Positions 4,278 through 13,066 of a stretch of 23,142 bases of DNA are shown piece after piece. The position numbers and the translations under genes were made by a program. The stretch lies in the IMG/VR virus record IMGVR_UViG_3300010354_000689, positions 1 to 23,142 of that record; one strand, given 5' to 3'. Position 1 is the first letter of the stretch. Each line of letters begins with the position of its first letter. This DNA comes from a virus. The notes under the pieces were generated by a model. That model did no database searches. It was not told where the DNA came from and saw only the letters and a list, made by a program, of their open reading frames with translations.

Positions 4278-6782
4278 TTATGCTAAAGCGATTACTCTAA
4301 AATCTGACAGTCTTGGCGGAAACGCTTGATTTGTTCCTGAACCAATAAGTTTAATGCTAAAGTATCTAAATGATGGTAGATTTGAAATTGTAAATTCATA
4401 TTCTTTATAGTCTAAATCAGATCTGTTATATCCAACTATATCAGTTTTAATTACCTTTTTATCAGAAGTTCCGTCATTTAGTGAATTGGAAATAATTCCC
4501 CCATCAATTGTAAGGTTTGAATAACCAGGAAATTGATAATATATATCTTTTTCGTTAGCGTCATTTTTGATTGCATAAAGTGCTCTCAAATCACTAAAAA
4601 CATTTATATAAGCAGAAACAATTATTTTTAATGAAGTTGCGGGCAATTCCAATTGAATATTATTTGTAGCATAAACAAAAGAAGATGGATCGTCCTTTAA
4701 TGTATTAACTCTATTGTCTGTAATATAATTACTGATGGGATTATTAATTCTATTAGAGGTCAAAATTACTGAAGACCTATCCAAATCAACAATCGGAGAA
4801 ATATAAGGATCTGTAGTTTCCAATAACATATTAATGGTTAAAGATTTATTTCCGGGAAGTGTTGTTAATCTTTCTTTCTCATTTATTTTAGAGCAAATTA
4901 TTCTTGGAGAATTTAGAAAGTTTTCTTTATTAAGATCAATATCAGAAAATCCTTTATCTTGGAAAGAAATTTCCGTTCCGTCAACACTAGTTCCGGAAAT
5001 CGTTCTCATTTTTGCTGAAATATTTGTACCATTAATAGATGTTGTTTTTATATTCGGATCAATAATTTCATATTGAATATTTTGAGTTGCATTAATAAAA
5101 CTTCCACCAGAGGATTTTGTTTGATTAAAATATAATTTTGGAAATTTAGTCCCTATTGACCTATCCACTTGTCCTTGAGGAAGAGATGCTGTTTTTCCAT
5201 CCGAAGATACGTCTATTTTTACATTATAATAATCAAAATCTATTGGATCGGAAACAGTAGCATCTTGTAGTGTATGTGTTGTATTAATTCTTCTCAGCGA
5301 TACTCCATTTAACTCATACTTGTAAACGAGAGTTCCTGATGTATAAGAGGATGATAAAGTTTGGTCAATTTCCCTAACTATACCAGTTAGTGTGTTACCA
5401 GAAACTCCATTATAAGAAATAATTTCGTTTCCAATTATAAAATATCCTGGGTTTTCTGTACTAACACCAACATTTTCAAAGGTTGAAAAATTTGCTACAG
5501 AATCTAGTGAAATATCCGAAGTAGAATTTTTATCGTAATTGACAGATAATTTAACCGGTTTTATATCACTAAGAACATTAGATAAAGATACAATATTTTC
5601 TCCGGCATGCATTCCATGATTTGAATGATTTACTTTTATATGTAACCCATCAGATTCTACTTCTATTCCGTCAGAAGGAATTAATACCCCTCCAACTGAA
5701 GCGTTTAAATCTGTTGCTATGCCAAGACTGTTAAAATAACTTATTGTACTTCCCGAACCTGTTATAAAGTCGCCTTGAACGTTATCTAAAATTAATTGGT
5801 TAACTCCTCTTAAGTTTGAAACAGAAATTCTTAAGTTTTTACCTAAAGTTTCTGCTCCAAGTTGAGATACAGAAAGAACATCCCCAATAACATAACCTGT
5901 TCCGCCATTAGATATTGTTGCTGCTATAGCAACTCCTCCATTTGAAATGGTAATGTTTGCCGTTGCATTTTTTCCGCTGCCAGTTATATTTGTTAGTGGG
6001 ATATTTGAGTATACTAAAGTTGATCCGTCAGTGGGAGTATATCCAATTCCTGCATTAATAATAGTTAAATTTCCAGTTGCAATTCCTGCGGATGAAACAT
6101 AGTTTCCAGTAGCATTACTTCCTTTTTGAAACACGGTATTTCCAAATACTAAATTCGGATCAACAATCGTAGATGCTAATCCGACTCTTATCTTTCTTGA
6201 TTGGAATTCAAGTGGATTCTGGAGTAATGTTGCAATTTGTGCATTGCCAACACCCAACTCTGGATTATAAAAATTAAAATCACCTTGCGTATTAGTAAAG
6301 TCTGCTCTATACAGTGTGAATTTTAAATCTTCATATGGACTCTCATTCCATGTAACGGCGTTTTGTGATTTAAAGAGACCGCCAGTAATTGATTCTTTTG
6401 TTACAACTTGCTGAGACTCTAATCCACCACTAGAAGTGACATCAATTTCTCCCAACCTAGAAACCCAGACATTATAATCTTGAGAATTTGACATTATAAC
6501 AAGAGCATGAAATTTTTGCCCAGTTAAATATACCGGAGAAGGAAAAGTTACTCTGGTTGGTGTTGAAGCATCAGTAAAATCTTTAACGTCTTTGGGGTCT
6601 ATTACAACTTCACCAAATGGATATACTTTTTCTGTAGGTAGACCAAGTTCCATTGGTCTTAGTTGGATAGTTACTGGTAACGTAGTATCTTTTGATAAAA
6701 AATATAAATCAACGGAAGTGACAAAAATTCCTTTACCATTTTCAACATAAAATGATTGTGCTAGTGGATCTACAACTTTCAT
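4278..6782 (-). CDS. Virion structural protein, detached C-terminal part of a DUF4815-type baseplate/fibre protein
   Basis: This 834-residue protein begins MKVVDPLAQSFYV, then GIFVTSVDLYFLSKD, LPVTIQLRPM and SPVYLTGQKFHALVIMSNS..YNVWVSRLG. In related cyanophage proteins, as I remember them, this block follows directly after the DUF4815 region in one long chain. Here it is a separate gene. Residues about 210-350 hold Gly-rich modules (INAGIGYTPTDG, SNGGTGYVIGD). About 410-490 hold the second shared module (GNEIISYNGVSGNTLTGIVRE). From about 570 to the end there is the conserved pattern GTSVDGTEISF, SPRIICSKINE, SNRIN..ISNYITD and a terminal PPRLSDFRVIALA. A role in the tail or baseplate periphery is likely. 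The ribosome site is poor (A-rich leader), but a late-promoter core lies 21 bases upstream. Confidence 0.85.
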   Translation of the reverse strand: MKVVDPLAQSFYVENGKGIFVTSVDLYFLSKDTTLPVTIQLRPMELGLPTEKVYPFGEVVIDPKDVKDFTDASTPTRVTFPSPVYLTGQKFHALVIMSNSQDYNVWVSRLGEIDVTSSGGLESQQVVTKESITGGLFKSQNAVTWNESPYEDLKFTLYRADFTNTQGDFNFYNPELGVGNAQIATLLQNPLEFQSRKIRVGLASTIVDPNLVFGNTVFQKGSNATGNYVSSAGIATGNLTIINAGIGYTPTDGSTLVYSNIPLTNITGSGKNATANITISNGGVAIAATISNGGTGYVIGDVLSVSQLGAETLGKNLRISVSNLRGVNQLILDNVQGDFITGSGSTISYFNSLGIATDLNASVGGVLIPSDGIEVESDGLHIKVNHSNHGMHAGENIVSLSNVLSDIKPVKLSVNYDKNSTSDISLDSVANFSTFENVGVSTENPGYFIIGNEIISYNGVSGNTLTGIVREIDQTLSSSYTSGTLVYKYELNGVSLRRINTTHTLQDATVSDPIDFDYYNVKIDVSSDGKTASLPQGQVDRSIGTKFPKLYFNQTKSSGGSFINATQNIQYEIIDPNIKTTSINGTNISAKMRTISGTSVDGTEISFQDKGFSDIDLNKENFLNSPRIICSKINEKERLTTLPGNKSLTINMLLETTDPYISPIVDLDRSSVILTSNRINNPISNYITDNRVNTLKDDPSSFVYATNNIQLELPATSLKIIVSAYINVFSDLRALYAIKNDANEKDIYYQFPGYSNLTIDGGIISNSLNDGTSDKKVIKTDIVGYNRSDLDYKEYEFTISNLPSFRYFSIKLIGSGTNQAFPPRLSDFRVIALA

Positions 6783-6795
6783 TTTTTTATTTTTA

Positions 6796-7215
6796 TTATT
6801 CTTTATTTATTTTGGTTTTGTTTGCGAAATTCTTGGTGTTTTCTTCTCCATAATCTAATGTTAACTCCTCACCGACATTAATATCTTTAGTTGCATAATG
6901 TCTCATTACTTCATTAACTTTGTCAATTTCAAAATTGACATTTGATTCTGAATTATGATTATATAGACCACAAAATCCCATACCAATAATACTAAATTTA
7001 TCGTCTAAAACATAACTATAAGGTATGCAGGAATTGCATTGATTTATTTCTTCTGTGGGTATTAAAAAATAAGGAAATTCTTCTAATATTTCATATTTTT
7101 TAATTCTCTGCCGAGCAAAAACTCCCCATCTATGAATGTCCGATCTTCTAACAACAAGTTTTTCAGAATAAATTAATTGGTATTTATATAATGATCTAGA
7201 TGAATTTGTTTCCAT
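6796..7215 (-). CDS. SET-domain protein, probable protein lysine methyltransferase
   Basis: SET proteins transfer a methyl group from S-adenosylmethionine to lysine side chains. In this 139-residue protein the minimal SET signatures are in order: RWGVFA at 29-34 (cofactor loop, usually G.G.FA), GLYNHNSESN at 83-92 (family NHS..PN, with N86 and H87 kept), and EELTLDYGE at 116-124 (family EELT.DY, with Y122 as the expected catalytic tyrosine). There are no pre-SET or post-SET zinc cysteines, and only three cysteines in all (C60, C63, C82). The length fits a bare SET core as seen in bacteria and large DNA viruses. GAAGGA at 7223-7218 is a good ribosome site. It lies between two structural genes that look like halves of one ancestral protein. 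The target is unknown; a virion protein or a host protein are both possible. Confidence 0.88.
   Translation of the reverse strand: METNSSRSLYKYQLIYSEKLVVRRSDIHRWGVFARQRIKKYEILEEFPYFLIPTEEINQCNSCIPYSYVLDDKFSIIGMGFCGLYNHNSESNVNFEIDKVNEVMRHYATKDINVGEELTLDYGEENTKNFANKTKINKE
6804..6811 (-). promoter_or_regulatory. Late-promoter-like AATAAATA upstream of the 834-aa gene
   Basis: AATAAATA lies in the last codons of the SET gene and ends 21 bases before the ATG at 6782, the same distance as the copy after gp16. It overlaps coding sequence (codons for K-I-N-K), so constraint from the protein is possible. Confidence 0.4.
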
Positions 7216-7241: not shown

Positions 7242-7502
7242 TCAACTCTGTCTATTTTTTAAAGTATCAACTTCTTTTTTTAATTCTTTTATTGCCTCAA
7301 TCATAACAGGAATTAATTGTATATAATCAACTGCTAAATAACCATTTTCTTGCATCTCAACCATTTCTGGAAATTCTTTTTGAACTTCTTGTGCAATCAC
7401 TCCATAAGAATTTCCAGATACCCCCGTAATTTCTGTCATTTTTTCATTCCATTCATAATACATTCCATTTAAATTTGCAATTTTATCTAAATAAACACCC
7501 AT
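7242..7502 (-). CDS. Separate C-terminal part of an S74 intramolecular chaperone domain
   Basis: This 86-residue product carries most of the S74 (endosialidase-type) chaperone fold: LDKIANLNGMYYEWNE, then SYGVIAQEVQKEFPEMV, NGYLAVDYIQLIPVMIEAIKELKKEVDTL. S74 domains sit at the C-terminus of trimeric fibres, help them fold, and then cut themselves off. The catalytic SD..LK segment is absent here. It is instead at the very end of the upstream 1,854-aa protein in another frame. The junction is TGATG: the stop of the large gene shares a base with this ATG, so coupled translation is likely. A TTG directly before the ATG is a less likely start. The last helix is leucine-rich and coiled-coil-like, as in normal S74 domains. 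It could act in trans on the large protein, or be a frameshift product of a once continuous gene. Confidence 0.85.
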   Translation of the reverse strand: MGVYLDKIANLNGMYYEWNEKMTEITGVSGNSYGVIAQEVQKEFPEMVEMQENGYLAVDYIQLIPVMIEAIKELKKEVDTLKNRQS

Positions 7503-10500
7503 CAATTAAAATTCAACCTGAACAATCTATTTAGTGCATTGTCAATGAGTTGAATGTTATTCTTGAGTTTGATATCACTCATACCCATTCCACCTCCACC
7601 ACCAGAACCCATTCCACCAGAACCCATTCCACCAGAATCCATTGGAGAAGACTGTGAAGGAGAACTCATGGGCGATGGTGTCGCACTATTCATAGGACCA
7701 TTATTGCCAGCTCCGTTGTTCATAGGGTTACTATTCATGGGAGGAGGAGTATTTGTCGGAGTAACTGCATTATTCATTGGATTATTCATTGGATTATTCA
7801 TTGGTGTAGGCTGGGTTCCGGTTCCAGTCCTTGATCCTTCATCTACAGTAGCAACCCTTTGACCACTACCAACCGTTTCTTTTCTTCCATTTCTAATGTT
7901 TCCTGTAGAAACTTGCAAATTATTAGAATCTGCATAGTTTGAGTTGTTTATTTGGTTGACAACTTTTGCTTCAAACTTTGGACTCATATCAGTATTGATA
8001 TTTCTTACAATATCTCTTGGGAGTCCTGCAGCTTGAGCAAGTTCTTTAAGTCTATTTGCCCCACCGTCTTGTAGTGGTTTTGGTCCATAATTATAATAAA
8101 CTGTTGTCGGTGGTGCTGGTGGTGGTGGAGGTTCGACTATCACAACTGGTGTTTGAGTCAATGTTTGAGTCGGTGTTGGAGACGGTGTTGGAGACGGTGT
8201 TGGTATTTCTGGTTTTGCTGGGGGAGATCCTGGACCGGGTATATATGAAATTGATTGTTCTACTTCCAGTCGTATTGGTCTTGAAACAAGAACATTTTCT
8301 TGGACCGTGTTGAGCTTTCCTTCAGAAAAATATTTTTCTTCGGAAACAGTTGTATATGTTCCATAAATTAAAGAATTTTTATCACTGCTTGTTAACCTAA
8401 AAAGTTTACTTCCACATTCAAATTTTGGATTAACATCTATATTTGGATTAGGAATAAAAAATGATCCAATAACAACGCCAACCTCATTTGTTATTAATCT
8501 AACATTAGTAATTGTAGCTTCCGCCTTACTTGTTTGTCCAATTAATTTCATACCAACTGCTACTGTTCCAGAGAATTGTCCTTGTGGTTGATTTGATAAA
8601 CTATAAGTGTCTACATTAAGAATTGTTGATGTTGAAGAATATAGTTCAGGTATATTAGACGAAGAATTATATGGGTTTTTTATATAAACATCTGATGGGG
8701 CGTTATATGGTCCATACTTGTGATTTTGTTTAGCAACTCTAAAAGATATCTTTGCGAATGAACCTGGAGTATTGAAAGTTCCTATTACTGTTTCTTCAAC
8801 TTGAAATACTCCACTAATCATGTTTATTTCAAGTAATTTTGGAACAATATATTTGTTTATATCAATACCGCCAAAGAAAGAATATACTCTTGTAAAGGGT
8901 TTCATTCTTTTTGCAGTAAATTCAACGTTTCTGGACCTCATGTATGGTATTATCTTAGTATCAGTTATTCTATCTCCTAAAGATTTTTCTTGTCTTCCAC
9001 CACCTCCTTTACCTCTACCTTTACCCCCAATCCCACCACCACTTCTTGTGCTGTTGTTGGTGCCGCCACCTGTCCAAAATTTATTTTTGGAATTCCAAAT
9101 TGAACCAACAAATCCTTTTTGTTGATCAAATGATTGATTAAGTGAAACCTGAACTTGATCTCTGGCAATTTCAATAGAATTTGCAGCTATTCTAGTTTGA
9201 TCAAGCCAAGAATCTGAAGATGGAAATAATGAAATAGTTCCATTATAAAAATCTTCAGCATATGGATTCACATTTACTGCTCTTGAAGCATATCTTTGAG
9301 TTATATAAGGAACTTCTTGATAATTTAAAGTGATTAATTGCCCAGTTCTTTTTACACCAGTTCCTATCAAAGTAGTATCTGTTCTAAAGTCGATGTTTGT
9401 TGTTACCCCTAATCCAATTGCTGAATTAGTCCCCAGTAAAAGATCAATCGATGTTGTAAAATGAGGTGGTCTTAACTCTCCCGTATCAGTATCAATTGAA
9501 TTTTTGTCTACTATCTCTTGATTTTGAGTAGATTTTTCTGTAAAGTTATCGACAAAAAATCCAGATTTAAAACGATTATTACCAACTTCATCAGTTACTT
9601 GAAAATTAGATGCATTAACTTCAAGTAGAGAAAGTGTGGTGTAAAGTTCCAAGTTTTCAATTCTATCTTCAAGTTTGCCTATATCTGACATCCTATATCT
9701 CTTATGTTCTTTTATATCAATGTCTATTTCATTGACATTATTGAGGTATGCTGGAAGATATGCTGTAGCGATTTCTAAAGAATCTTCTCCAATAACCGGT
9801 GATTGTGGATTTTCCGCCGGAGTTCCTGATTTTAATTGAAAAACTCCATTTTTATCCAAAGTTATTTTATCAATTCTTGGAAGATAGAATGAGTATGAAA
9901 GTAAAATTGACTCATCTGATGCTAAAATATTTGATGAAGAATTTCCAGATTGAGTAAAAATTCTTGACAAAAACTCAAAAGGAGATCTTGAATATTCAGT
10001 CGGAGTAATTTTAGAAACTCTTGGTCTAATATCTAACATATCGGAATTTTTCAAAACATAATCATACATATATCCTATATCAAGATAATCATATTGTTCA
10101 TATGAATTTACGGATGTTATATCCCCAGTATCTGACGAAGAAAAACTTGCAGATTCAAAAATTACTTTTAATTTTCTTGTAGGCTCTTTACTTTTTACTT
10201 CTCTAGTAATACTAGAATAATCATACAAGGTTTCTTTTTGGTTTGTATTATATTTAAAGGAAGAAGTTACATTTTTGTCTCCAATATCCAATGTAGAAAT
10301 AACAGCTGTTATACCAGATTCTTTAAATGTTACTTTTTCACCTTCAATGAAATTATTAGAATTTGAATATACAAATCCTATCTTTAAGTCATTAATTTTT
10401 TCACAGTAAATTCCAAGGGATTGACTTTTTTCTCCTATAAATTCTTCTCCAATTAACAAATCCGAAGTTTTATTTGTTGGTCCGTTTAACGAACTTAAAA

Positions 10501-13066
10501 TAACTGATGGAAGTTCTGGATCATTTTGATCATTTGATTCATAAATGCCATAAACGTTAGTTACGTCTGGTTCAAGCAAACATATTTCTTCATCTTGAAC
10601 TCTTGTTCCATAAGGATATTTTCCATATATAAGTCCATCATTTAATGTTGTTGAACCTATTCCAGATGCTGAATATTTTGATTTATCAATAATTAAAGTT
10701 TTTATTCTATTTTTATTTTTAATTTTAGATTTTACATTAGATTTTCTAAGAGTTGCTATTAATTTTGCATTTCCATTATTAGAAAGACCATTTATAGTTA
10801 AAGATTTGGAACCATTTGTAAATACAAATTTATCAGCACTTAAATTTTGAGTAAATCCACTTTCTGTTACTAAAACGTATCTTTCTTCATCATAAGGTAA
10901 AAATGTTTCATCTTGTCCGGCGTTTATTATTCCTGTAGAGTTTGATGTGATTGTTACATCAAACTGTTTTCTTATTGTTAGATTTGATTTTGTTAAATCT
11001 ACATTTGCTACATTTGATTTTGGTAAAATTGTATATAATGAATTATCGGTAGATGATTGTAATTTTGTTGTTATAATTCTAAAATCAGATGGTGTTATAT
11101 TTGAATTTGGAAGATCACCATCGCAAACTCCGCTAACTGTAGTTACTCCGCTAATAGTAAGAGAATTTTCTGATACGGATACAATTTTAGCGAATGTTAC
11201 CGTAGAAAGACCTGGATTAGAGAATGCAACTAAATTTTGGGCAGTGGCAATTCCCACAAAAAACTTTCCTGGAGAGGTAACTGTACTTACTCCCGATGAT
11301 TGTCCTGTTATTGTTACTTGCCCAATACTTAAAGAAGTACTCTGAATTGTATCGCCGGTAAAAGTATAAGAAGTTCCTACTATACCGTGTACAGATTTTA
11401 CGTCAGATATTCCATATGAACGAATATTTTTAGTAACTCTGGTATTTTCTATTCCATCAAAAATAAGTTTCTCTCCCAAAGAAAAATTACCTTTAGAATT
11501 ATAAACAGTAAGTGCTGTTCCTGCAGAAACATCGTATCTGAGGAATCCAACTGCCCCACTTTCCTTTCCTTTTACATGAACAGGAGTTTGTAATGTTATT
11601 GGTTCGTTCATATCAATAGTTGTATATGTTTGTATATCATATAAACATATATCCCATTGATTTTCTTCTGGTCTTGATGTGCTATAAGATCCAGATTCTA
11701 GTGCAAAGTCATAAACTCTAGCTAATCCAATTTCATTCCCTGGTGGAGTTATTTGAGAAGATCCAACTCTAGAATCTCTAAGACTTACATAATAAGTTGT
11801 AGCAATACTAACAATCGGAGACCCATAAACTCTATTAAGAGTAAAAGTTGGACCTGTAAAATAATTTATGCTTTGATCTTCTAAAGTTTTTGTTTGTCTT
11901 GGTTTTACAAAGTCCAAAAATGTAGGAGAAATAGTTTCAATTTCATATCCCCTAACATAAGCTTTAAGTGGAGAAATATTATAAGTTGCTAATCCCTCTT
12001 GAGGGACATTACCATTATAAGTTAGTTGATTTTCGGAAAAAACTCCATTATTTCCCCTTAAATTATTTAATGTTTCTTGTACTACAATAATAGGAGTGTT
12101 TACATAATAATCTCCAGACTCATCAAATGTTCTCCTAGCAAATTCTTGTGAGATAATATTATATTCGGGAGTTCTTGAAATATTAATCAATTCTCCCTGA
12201 TTAATTTCTAATAATTGAATAAAATTATTAGTGTCATTTGAATCTAATGGTATTTGTTCTAACTTAACAAATATAGAAAATCTATCTGCTCCCGGAGCAG
12301 CATAATTTGAAAACCCCTGTGCATTATCATAAAGGCTATCATCATCAAAAGCTGTTTTAATTTCCTCAAATACCCTAAAACCAACTCTGGCACTAGGAAT
12401 ATTTGAATATGGATTAAGATATAAAACAGTTGTAGGAACATCAACAAAATATCCCCTTATGTAATAAACACCTTCTTCCAAATAAACCGAAGAAGCTTTA
12501 TATGTGCTATTTTGAAGAACTGTTGTTGCAAAAGCTTTTCCGGAGGGAAGTAAAATTTCTGAAGGGTCATCATTTTCTAAAGTATCGCTATCTATTGCCA
12601 GGATATCTTGATCAACTAATAAATTTTCTCCATCTAAAAAAGTTTTTTGAGAATTACTTTGCGAATCAGAAGACAAATACTTTACAATTAAAGTAGTTTT
12701 ACTTATCGTATTAGATATATTTAAGTAATCTTCAATTATAGCAGTGATGCCACTTGTTTCTCCCTTTATTCGTGAACCTATTAAACTACTAAGGTATAAA
12801 TTAGCAGGGGTTCCTTGATAAGTGTCCTGTAAAACTACACTATTTAAATCATTTTTATAAATTATATTTCCAGGAATAACTACAGATCCTTCTTTAAATA
12901 CATGATTTCCAAATTTTTCAATTTGACTTTGAAGAATGGATTGTAGTGTTGTTAGCTCTCTTGCTTGAACAGGATAACCAGGTTTGAAAAGTACTTTATA
13001 ATATTCTTTTTGTGGGTCAAAATCATCAAAATATGGAGAGACGTTAAGATTAGTTTCCTGTGGCAT
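7502..13066 (-). CDS. DUF4815-type baseplate/tail-fibre structural protein with a truncated S74 end
   Basis: This 1,854-residue virion protein lies in the T4 gp9-gp12 position. The N-terminus SPYFDDFDPQKEYYKVLFKPGYPVQARELTTLQ (residues 11-43), given here in two parts: SPYFDDFDPQKEYYKV and LFKPGYPVQARELTTLQ, is the DUF4815 signature. Further family blocks are DMLDIRPRVSKI and SPFEFLSRIF near 1010-1035, SDIGKLEDRIENLELY near 1125-1140, and PYMRSRNVEFTAKRMKPFTR near 1375-1395. A Gly/Lys/Arg-rich linker is near 1335-1360. Near 1550-1590, KLFRLTSSDKN...GKLNTVQENVLV is the part that usually precedes a DPLAQTF segment, but that segment is absent. It is replaced by a Pro-rich linker (about 1600-1655), Asn/Met/Pro/Gly repeats (about 1750-1828), and then SDIKLKNN at 1830-1837, the start of an S74 chaperone. 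The dyad positions S1830 and K1835 are kept. The chain stops at residue 1854, mid-domain. It starts seven bases after gp8, with a weak AAAGAA ribosome site. Confidence 0.88.
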   Translation of the reverse strand: MPQETNLNVSPYFDDFDPQKEYYKVLFKPGYPVQARELTTLQSILQSQIEKFGNHVFKEGSVVIPGNIIYKNDLNSVVLQDTYQGTPANLYLSSLIGSRIKGETSGITAIIEDYLNISNTISKTTLIVKYLSSDSQSNSQKTFLDGENLLVDQDILAIDSDTLENDDPSEILLPSGKAFATTVLQNSTYKASSVYLEEGVYYIRGYFVDVPTTVLYLNPYSNIPSARVGFRVFEEIKTAFDDDSLYDNAQGFSNYAAPGADRFSIFVKLEQIPLDSNDTNNFIQLLEINQGELINISRTPEYNIISQEFARRTFDESGDYYVNTPIIVVQETLNNLRGNNGVFSENQLTYNGNVPQEGLATYNISPLKAYVRGYEIETISPTFLDFVKPRQTKTLEDQSINYFTGPTFTLNRVYGSPIVSIATTYYVSLRDSRVGSSQITPPGNEIGLARVYDFALESGSYSTSRPEENQWDICLYDIQTYTTIDMNEPITLQTPVHVKGKESGAVGFLRYDVSAGTALTVYNSKGNFSLGEKLIFDGIENTRVTKNIRSYGISDVKSVHGIVGTSYTFTGDTIQSTSLSIGQVTITGQSSGVSTVTSPGKFFVGIATAQNLVAFSNPGLSTVTFAKIVSVSENSLTISGVTTVSGVCDGDLPNSNITPSDFRIITTKLQSSTDNSLYTILPKSNVANVDLTKSNLTIRKQFDVTITSNSTGIINAGQDETFLPYDEERYVLVTESGFTQNLSADKFVFTNGSKSLTINGLSNNGNAKLIATLRKSNVKSKIKNKNRIKTLIIDKSKYSASGIGSTTLNDGLIYGKYPYGTRVQDEEICLLEPDVTNVYGIYESNDQNDPELPSVILSSLNGPTNKTSDLLIGEEFIGEKSQSLGIYCEKINDLKIGFVYSNSNNFIEGEKVTFKESGITAVISTLDIGDKNVTSSFKYNTNQKETLYDYSSITREVKSKEPTRKLKVIFESASFSSSDTGDITSVNSYEQYDYLDIGYMYDYVLKNSDMLDIRPRVSKITPTEYSRSPFEFLSRIFTQSGNSSSNILASDESILLSYSFYLPRIDKITLDKNGVFQLKSGTPAENPQSPVIGEDSLEIATAYLPAYLNNVNEIDIDIKEHKRYRMSDIGKLEDRIENLELYTTLSLLEVNASNFQVTDEVGNNRFKSGFFVDNFTEKSTQNQEIVDKNSIDTDTGELRPPHFTTSIDLLLGTNSAIGLGVTTNIDFRTDTTLIGTGVKRTGQLITLNYQEVPYITQRYASRAVNVNPYAEDFYNGTISLFPSSDSWLDQTRIAANSIEIARDQVQVSLNQSFDQQKGFVGSIWNSKNKFWTGGGTNNSTRSGGGIGGKGRGKGGGGRQEKSLGDRITDTKIIPYMRSRNVEFTAKRMKPFTRVYSFFGGIDINKYIVPKLLEINMISGVFQVEETVIGTFNTPGSFAKISFRVAKQNHKYGPYNAPSDVYIKNPYNSSSNIPELYSSTSTILNVDTYSLSNQPQGQFSGTVAVGMKLIGQTSKAEATITNVRLITNEVGVVIGSFFIPNPNIDVNPKFECGSKLFRLTSSDKNSLIYGTYTTVSEEKYFSEGKLNTVQENVLVSRPIRLEVEQSISYIPGPGSPPAKPEIPTPSPTPSPTPTQTLTQTPVVIVEPPPPPAPPTTVYYNYGPKPLQDGGANRLKELAQAAGLPRDIVRNINTDMSPKFEAKVVNQINNSNYADSNNLQVSTGNIRNGRKETVGSGQRVATVDEGSRTGTGTQPTPMNNPMNNPMNNAVTPTNTPPPMNSNPMNNGAGNNGPMNSATPSPMSSPSQSSPMDSGGMGSGGMGSGGGGGMGMSDIKLKNNIQLIDNALNRLFRLNFN
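7601..7645. repeat. 15-bp in-frame tandem repeat, three copies
   Basis: Two exact copies of accagaacccattcc are followed by a third with two substitutions. On the minus strand they encode GMGSG-type repeats directly before the S74 start. The unit length is a multiple of three, so copy-number change would not break the frame. Confidence 0.9.
7769..7804. repeat. 12-bp in-frame tandem repeat, three exact copies
   Basis: Three exact copies of attattcattgg encode PMNN repeats in the linker of the DUF4815-type protein. Exact identity suggests recent expansion. Confidence 0.92.
8151..8203. repeat. 12-bp in-frame tandem repeat, about 4.4 copies
   Basis: The plus strand reads gtttgagtcaat, gtttgagtcggt, gttggagacggt twice, and then gttgg. 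On the minus strand this encodes the PTPSPTPSPTPTQTLTQT part of the proline-rich linker, a stiff spacer between the body and the C-terminal domains. Confidence 0.9.

Follow-up and report, generated by a model that had tools for sequence, protein, structure and literature searches.

A likely two-chain form of the S74 chaperone encoded at a break in the VrlC/DUF4815 gene of metagenomic viruses

Introduction

The S74 domain is the textbook intramolecular chaperone, which is covalently attached to its client and then cut off. In MyRF, where the S587/K592 dyad equals S911/K916 of endoNF, the cleaved "cable" threads the β "donut" of a neighboring subunit, trimerization occurs mostly through the last helix, and three α1 helices make a collar (PMC8326128). 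Tail-fiber chaperones of the intermolecular kind are represented by T4 gp38, Mu/pyocin Tfa and V22 gp27; no homology to other chaperones is stated for V22 gp27 (PMC7289586). Neither T4 gp38 nor Tfa is known to be related to S74.

Here, we analyze a 23,142-nucleotide stretch of viral DNA (the window; IMG/VR record IMGVR_UViG_3300010354_000689), in which the S74 domain is distributed over two genes, and we compare it with related loci and with the structures above. We propose that the chaperone is likely reassembled from two chains, with a short client-borne tail serving as a modular tag.

Results

The S74 domain of the window is divided between two overlapping genes

Profile search returns two PF13884 matches on the minus strand of the window: the first, at 7579-7490 in the 1,854-aa protein (chain A), covers model positions 1-31 (E 3.1e-5), and the second, at 7493-7359 in an 86-aa ORF (chain B), covers positions 16-57 (E 1.5e-10). 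Chain B alone exceeds the curated PF13884 cut-off and the A part stays below it (19.4 of 22 bits), and only the two together (1-31 + 16-57) cover the family profile across the whole domain. Chain A ends in GGGMGM-SDIKLKNNIQLIDNALNRLFRLNFN, immediately followed by a stop that overlaps the B start within TGATG (ATG at 7502-7500), with a TTG one codon before the ATG as an alternative B start. The B frame is -1 relative to A and is closed by a TAA a few bases upstream, and there is therefore no long alternative reading. The Ser-Lys dyad (S and the K at S+5) lies in the A-tail, B is without a catalytic dyad, and the stretch common to both, about a dozen residues long, is helix α1. The initial annotation had claimed, from the sequence alone, that the domain is split over the end of the 1,854-aa protein and the TGATG-started ORF, that the protein's tail holds the Ser/Lys self-cleavage pair, and that both pieces share a sub-motif of about a dozen residues; all three claims held, with a dyad spacing of five residues and with α1 as the shared stretch.

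Table 1. Coordinates of the split S74 pair and adjoining genes in the window
Feature	Positions	Strand	Profile match
VrlC/DUF4815 N-terminal chain, 1,854 aa, then Pro/Met/Gly-rich linker and A-tail	7502..13066	-	phrog_358 1-1399
S74 A-tail, 25 aa (SDIKLKNNIQLIDNALNRLFRLNFN): predicted cleavage site M/S, Ser-Lys dyad, α1 copy 1	7505..7579	-	
A chain stop codon TGA, overlaps B ATG	7502..7504	-	
S74 B chain, 86 aa: α1 copy 2, four β strands, C-terminal helix	7242..7502	-	
SET-domain gene between B and VrlC C-chain	6796..7215	-	PF00856, E 7e-13
VrlC C-terminal chain, 834 aa, begins at ...DPLAQSF junction	4278..6782	-	phrog_358 1421-2055

Split pairs form a single conserved clade

Searching IMG/VR with B chains, followed by profile scans of the fetched loci, yielded 35 distinct split pairs, all on metagenome contigs, and 105 distinct in-frame S74 domains. 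The single-polypeptide criterion of the intramolecular Peptidase_S74 family is not met by any of the 35 pairs, which consist of separate ORFs in different frames: B is offset by -1 from A in 24 and by +1 in 11, and never shares its frame. It starts with ATG in 34 pairs and GTG in one, at offsets of -14 to +11 nt relative to where the A stop begins, and the A and B frames fail to overlap in five. Every A-tail carries the S and S+5 K dyad and the SD..LK motif (35/35) and ends 22-30 residues past the Ser; residues S, D, L, K, N and I are invariant among 18 aligned tails, and the segment preceding the Ser varies among loci (Gly-rich, Pro-rich or neither).

In a tree of 88 B regions, all 34 split chains are set apart by a branch with support 100/99, so that split B chains constitute one clade apart from the in-frame S74 domains with one change of state, the inner forks being weak because only 82 columns were available. 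Identity to the window's B reaches down to about 52% in the aligned set without any member in which the parts are rejoined. Furthermore, purifying selection is evident on both pieces: in pairwise comparisons pN falls far short of pS in B and, for the most part, also in the short A-tail, and in most pairs A-tail and B alike have pN/pS < 1. Together, the 35 pairs, their single clade and the conservation of both pieces show that the split arrangement is old and maintained rather than a local accident. The impression in the initial annotation of a recombination between two S74 copies may fit the origin of the pair, and its check for relatives with one continuous frame gave the opposite outcome (0/35); as a refinement, the pair is not unique to the window and adjoins a break of VrlC/DUF4815 into two genes. 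In one locus (L287:4001-6802) further frame breaks, possibly sequencing errors, cut B and the VrlC C-chain.

No split S74 was found in cultured phages, where the closest listed matches share about 46% identity with B; the annotated cultured-phage matches examined (S-SSM7 and S-SRM01), as well as a single-cell contig, carry in-frame S74 tail proteins. A scan of genome contigs gave a single hit, a distant in-frame S74 from a Bdellovibrionales MAG.

The pair is located mostly at a break in VrlC

Chain A matches the VrlC/DUF4815 profile (PF16075, 2.7e-59), and it and the 834-aa protein correspond to the two halves of phrog_358. Both chains likewise match, as halves, the VrlC/DUF4815 proteins of the baseplate in T4-like cyanophages and pelagimyophages; PDB matches for VrlC include 9euf. 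Whereas VrlC of the window is broken into two genes at the S74 pair, VrlC relatives without the pair feature a single ORF of about 2,500 aa and no S74: both halves share one ORF in 57 fetched loci (some near-duplicates), and the gene is unbroken in Synechococcus phage S-SM2 (7,560 nt). Among split loci the pair is found mostly at this break, and wherever VrlC is present with sufficient flank it is encoded by two genes, interrupted just before the ...DPLAQSF segment, with the A-tail and B inside the break.

Additional variation was observed around this junction. VrlC is broken at the same position without an S74 pair, across a 75-nt gap, in L005:7995-16079; the N-part has a second break in L172:1-3990, its first piece lacking an A-tail; and homologues of the SET-domain gene occur at its position only in the window's subclade.

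Chain B is predicted to adopt the S74 fold beyond the dyad

AlphaFold2 run on 26 split B chains (pLDDT 90.5) predicts the order helix-strand-helix-strand-helix-strand-strand-long helix. Its best PDB matches comprise the phage chaperones 3GW6, 4UW8 and 3GUD as well as the MyRF ICA (TM 0.78, Z 8.4, residues 601-697), the comparison with 7DC3 giving Z 8.4 across 85 residues (fold only, monomer); endoNF residues 924-1062 align with Z 6.7. The predicted model thus meets the expectation of an ICA fold with a long terminal helix, the trimerizing role of which is inferred from the family. B aligns over its full length to MyRF ICA and endoNF just past their respective dyads, and therefore begins right after the dyad, at α1, leaving the dyad and its own α1 to the A-tail.

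Other clients and unpaired tails

Two members have the pair behind proteins other than VrlC: in L169 this protein is 235 aa long and weakly matches the GP38 adhesin, and in L102 it is 483 aa long with a Gly-rich end. Downstream of B, both loci have a glycine-rich ORF. L169 additionally carries a conventional in-frame S74 gene directly upstream, and in-frame S74 occurs elsewhere on the large contigs G004 and G005. In L102 (2544-3992) a Hint/intein-like end (...AHTYVCCGFLSHN...) precedes the Gly-rich linker and A-tail, the intein-family match being only weak.

In L096 the VrlC N-part is in two pieces, both A-tailed, and B follows the second piece only. The first tail, if functional, must therefore use a B from elsewhere. 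Two tails with only one B offer the best hint we have that B may act in trans, a possibility that rests on one contig. Orphan A-tails, sought only in loci already fetched, comprise this one (L096:2213-2311, no B behind; also L168, L260; contig IMGVR_UViG_3300021961_000137).

Discussion

In light of these results, we propose that the S74 chaperone is reassembled from two chains, the tail acting as a modular client tag, a reading we consider likely (probability roughly 0.72) and in which expression, 3A:3B assembly, chaperone action and cleavage are inferred. Chain A would be the VrlC N-part, its last 25 residues forming a "cable" that carries both the cleavage site and the Ser-Lys dyad in addition to one α1, and B would be made next to its client by translational coupling at the overlapping stop and start. 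B would supply a second α1, the β "donut" and the C-terminal trimerizing helix; three B chains would trimerize via this last helix, each capturing one A-tail, so that three VrlC N-chains would be held together by the B trimer during folding. Finally, cleavage ahead of the Ser would release the A-tail, which would depart together with B. The separation of cable and donut is structurally plausible because the MyRF cable threads a neighboring subunit's donut, and retention of the dyad in every tail implies, by inference, tail cleavage.

Support comes from the complementary PF13884 halves, which share only α1; anatomy, conservation, single clade and selection are shown for this reading, with the B fold predicted by model. 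The initial annotation's claim of a domain working in trans if both products are made is thus supported by the relatives, expression, assembly and cleavage being inferred. Against it stands the absence of expression, mass-spectrometry or complex data; what is known of the family, rather than protein data, underlies the inference of VrlC-N trimerization, chaperone action and cleavage. Most loci also have a Gly/Pro-rich linker before the Ser and not the triple-β-helix usual for phage S74 clients, the split loci are all metagenomic, and the case of two tails with one B is a single contig. A bolder and only possible extension is a client-tag system, in which various virion proteins could acquire the 25-residue S74 tail and a single free B would process in trans every client of the phage that bears one; if true, an intramolecular chaperone would have turned intermolecular.

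The most serious rival, which we nonetheless regard as unlikely, is that A-tail and B do bind but cleavage is lost or secondary, with B remaining in the virion as a trimerizing clamp or docking adaptor for the VrlC N-chain, which it might also connect to the separate C-chain. The location of the pair exactly at the VrlC N/C chain break and the flexible, stalkless linker upstream of the Ser favor such a clamp; however, the catalytic Ser and Lys, needed for cleavage only, are retained in every tail, and in two loci the pair lies behind other proteins.

Still less probable is a spreading inserted cassette that mainly breaks host genes, the chaperone role being a by-product. The pair does sit at gene breaks in VrlC, the GP38-like adhesin and the Gly-rich protein, with glycine-rich coding resuming past B in the latter two, but no endonuclease or integrase is seen beside it, and the identical VrlC break occurs without the pair in L005.

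Programmed ribosomal frameshifting or bypassing, which would fuse A and B into an ordinary S74, is all but ruled out: frames do overlap at the junction in many loci, but both +1 and -1 relations occur, five loci have no overlap, the fused product would hold α1 twice, and an in-frame slippery heptamer is present in only 1/35 loci (L089), where B is in +1 and unreachable by a -1 slip. Frame offsets, slippery-site scan and duplicated α1 thus lead us to reject frameshifting as a general mechanism, answering the check on it raised by the initial annotation. Equally remote is decay of a broken S74 domain into remnants: most VrlC relatives do function with no S74 domain, but the 35 diverged pairs keep open frames, start/stop coupling and catalytic residues at low pN/pS, and the many loci with stops inside B that decay would need were not seen. 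A pseudogene is accordingly rejected on conservation in favor of a very probably functional two-part version, with expression and cleavage inferred. Assembly error is rejected since the same split recurs in 35 distinct loci from many metagenomes.

The S74 family is already known; we found no description of a split or trans-acting S74 in the open-access literature searched, and no conserved two-chain form there or in cultured phages. A natural, conserved two-chain S74 would demonstrate that the chaperone can do without covalent attachment. It would also permit free mixing of cable and cutter in vitro and provide a short, removable tag together with a separate trimerizing partner.

The split pair resembles known S74 members in sequence family, Ser-Lys dyad spacing, the α1-β-α-β-α-β-β-long helix order and C-terminal position on a virion protein. 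It differs in that known members are one continuous chain, whereas here the dyad and the remaining fold reside on two separately translated chains, both of which carry α1. As with T4 gp38, Mu/pyocin Tfa and V22 gp27, the gene for a small separate protein directly follows that of the client (PMC7289586), but none of those chaperones is known to complete a self-cleaving domain using its client's tail, as the A/B pair is proposed to do. The two-chain S74 would represent a third phage route to tail or baseplate protein assembly, besides fused S74 domains and Tfa/gp38-type proteins.
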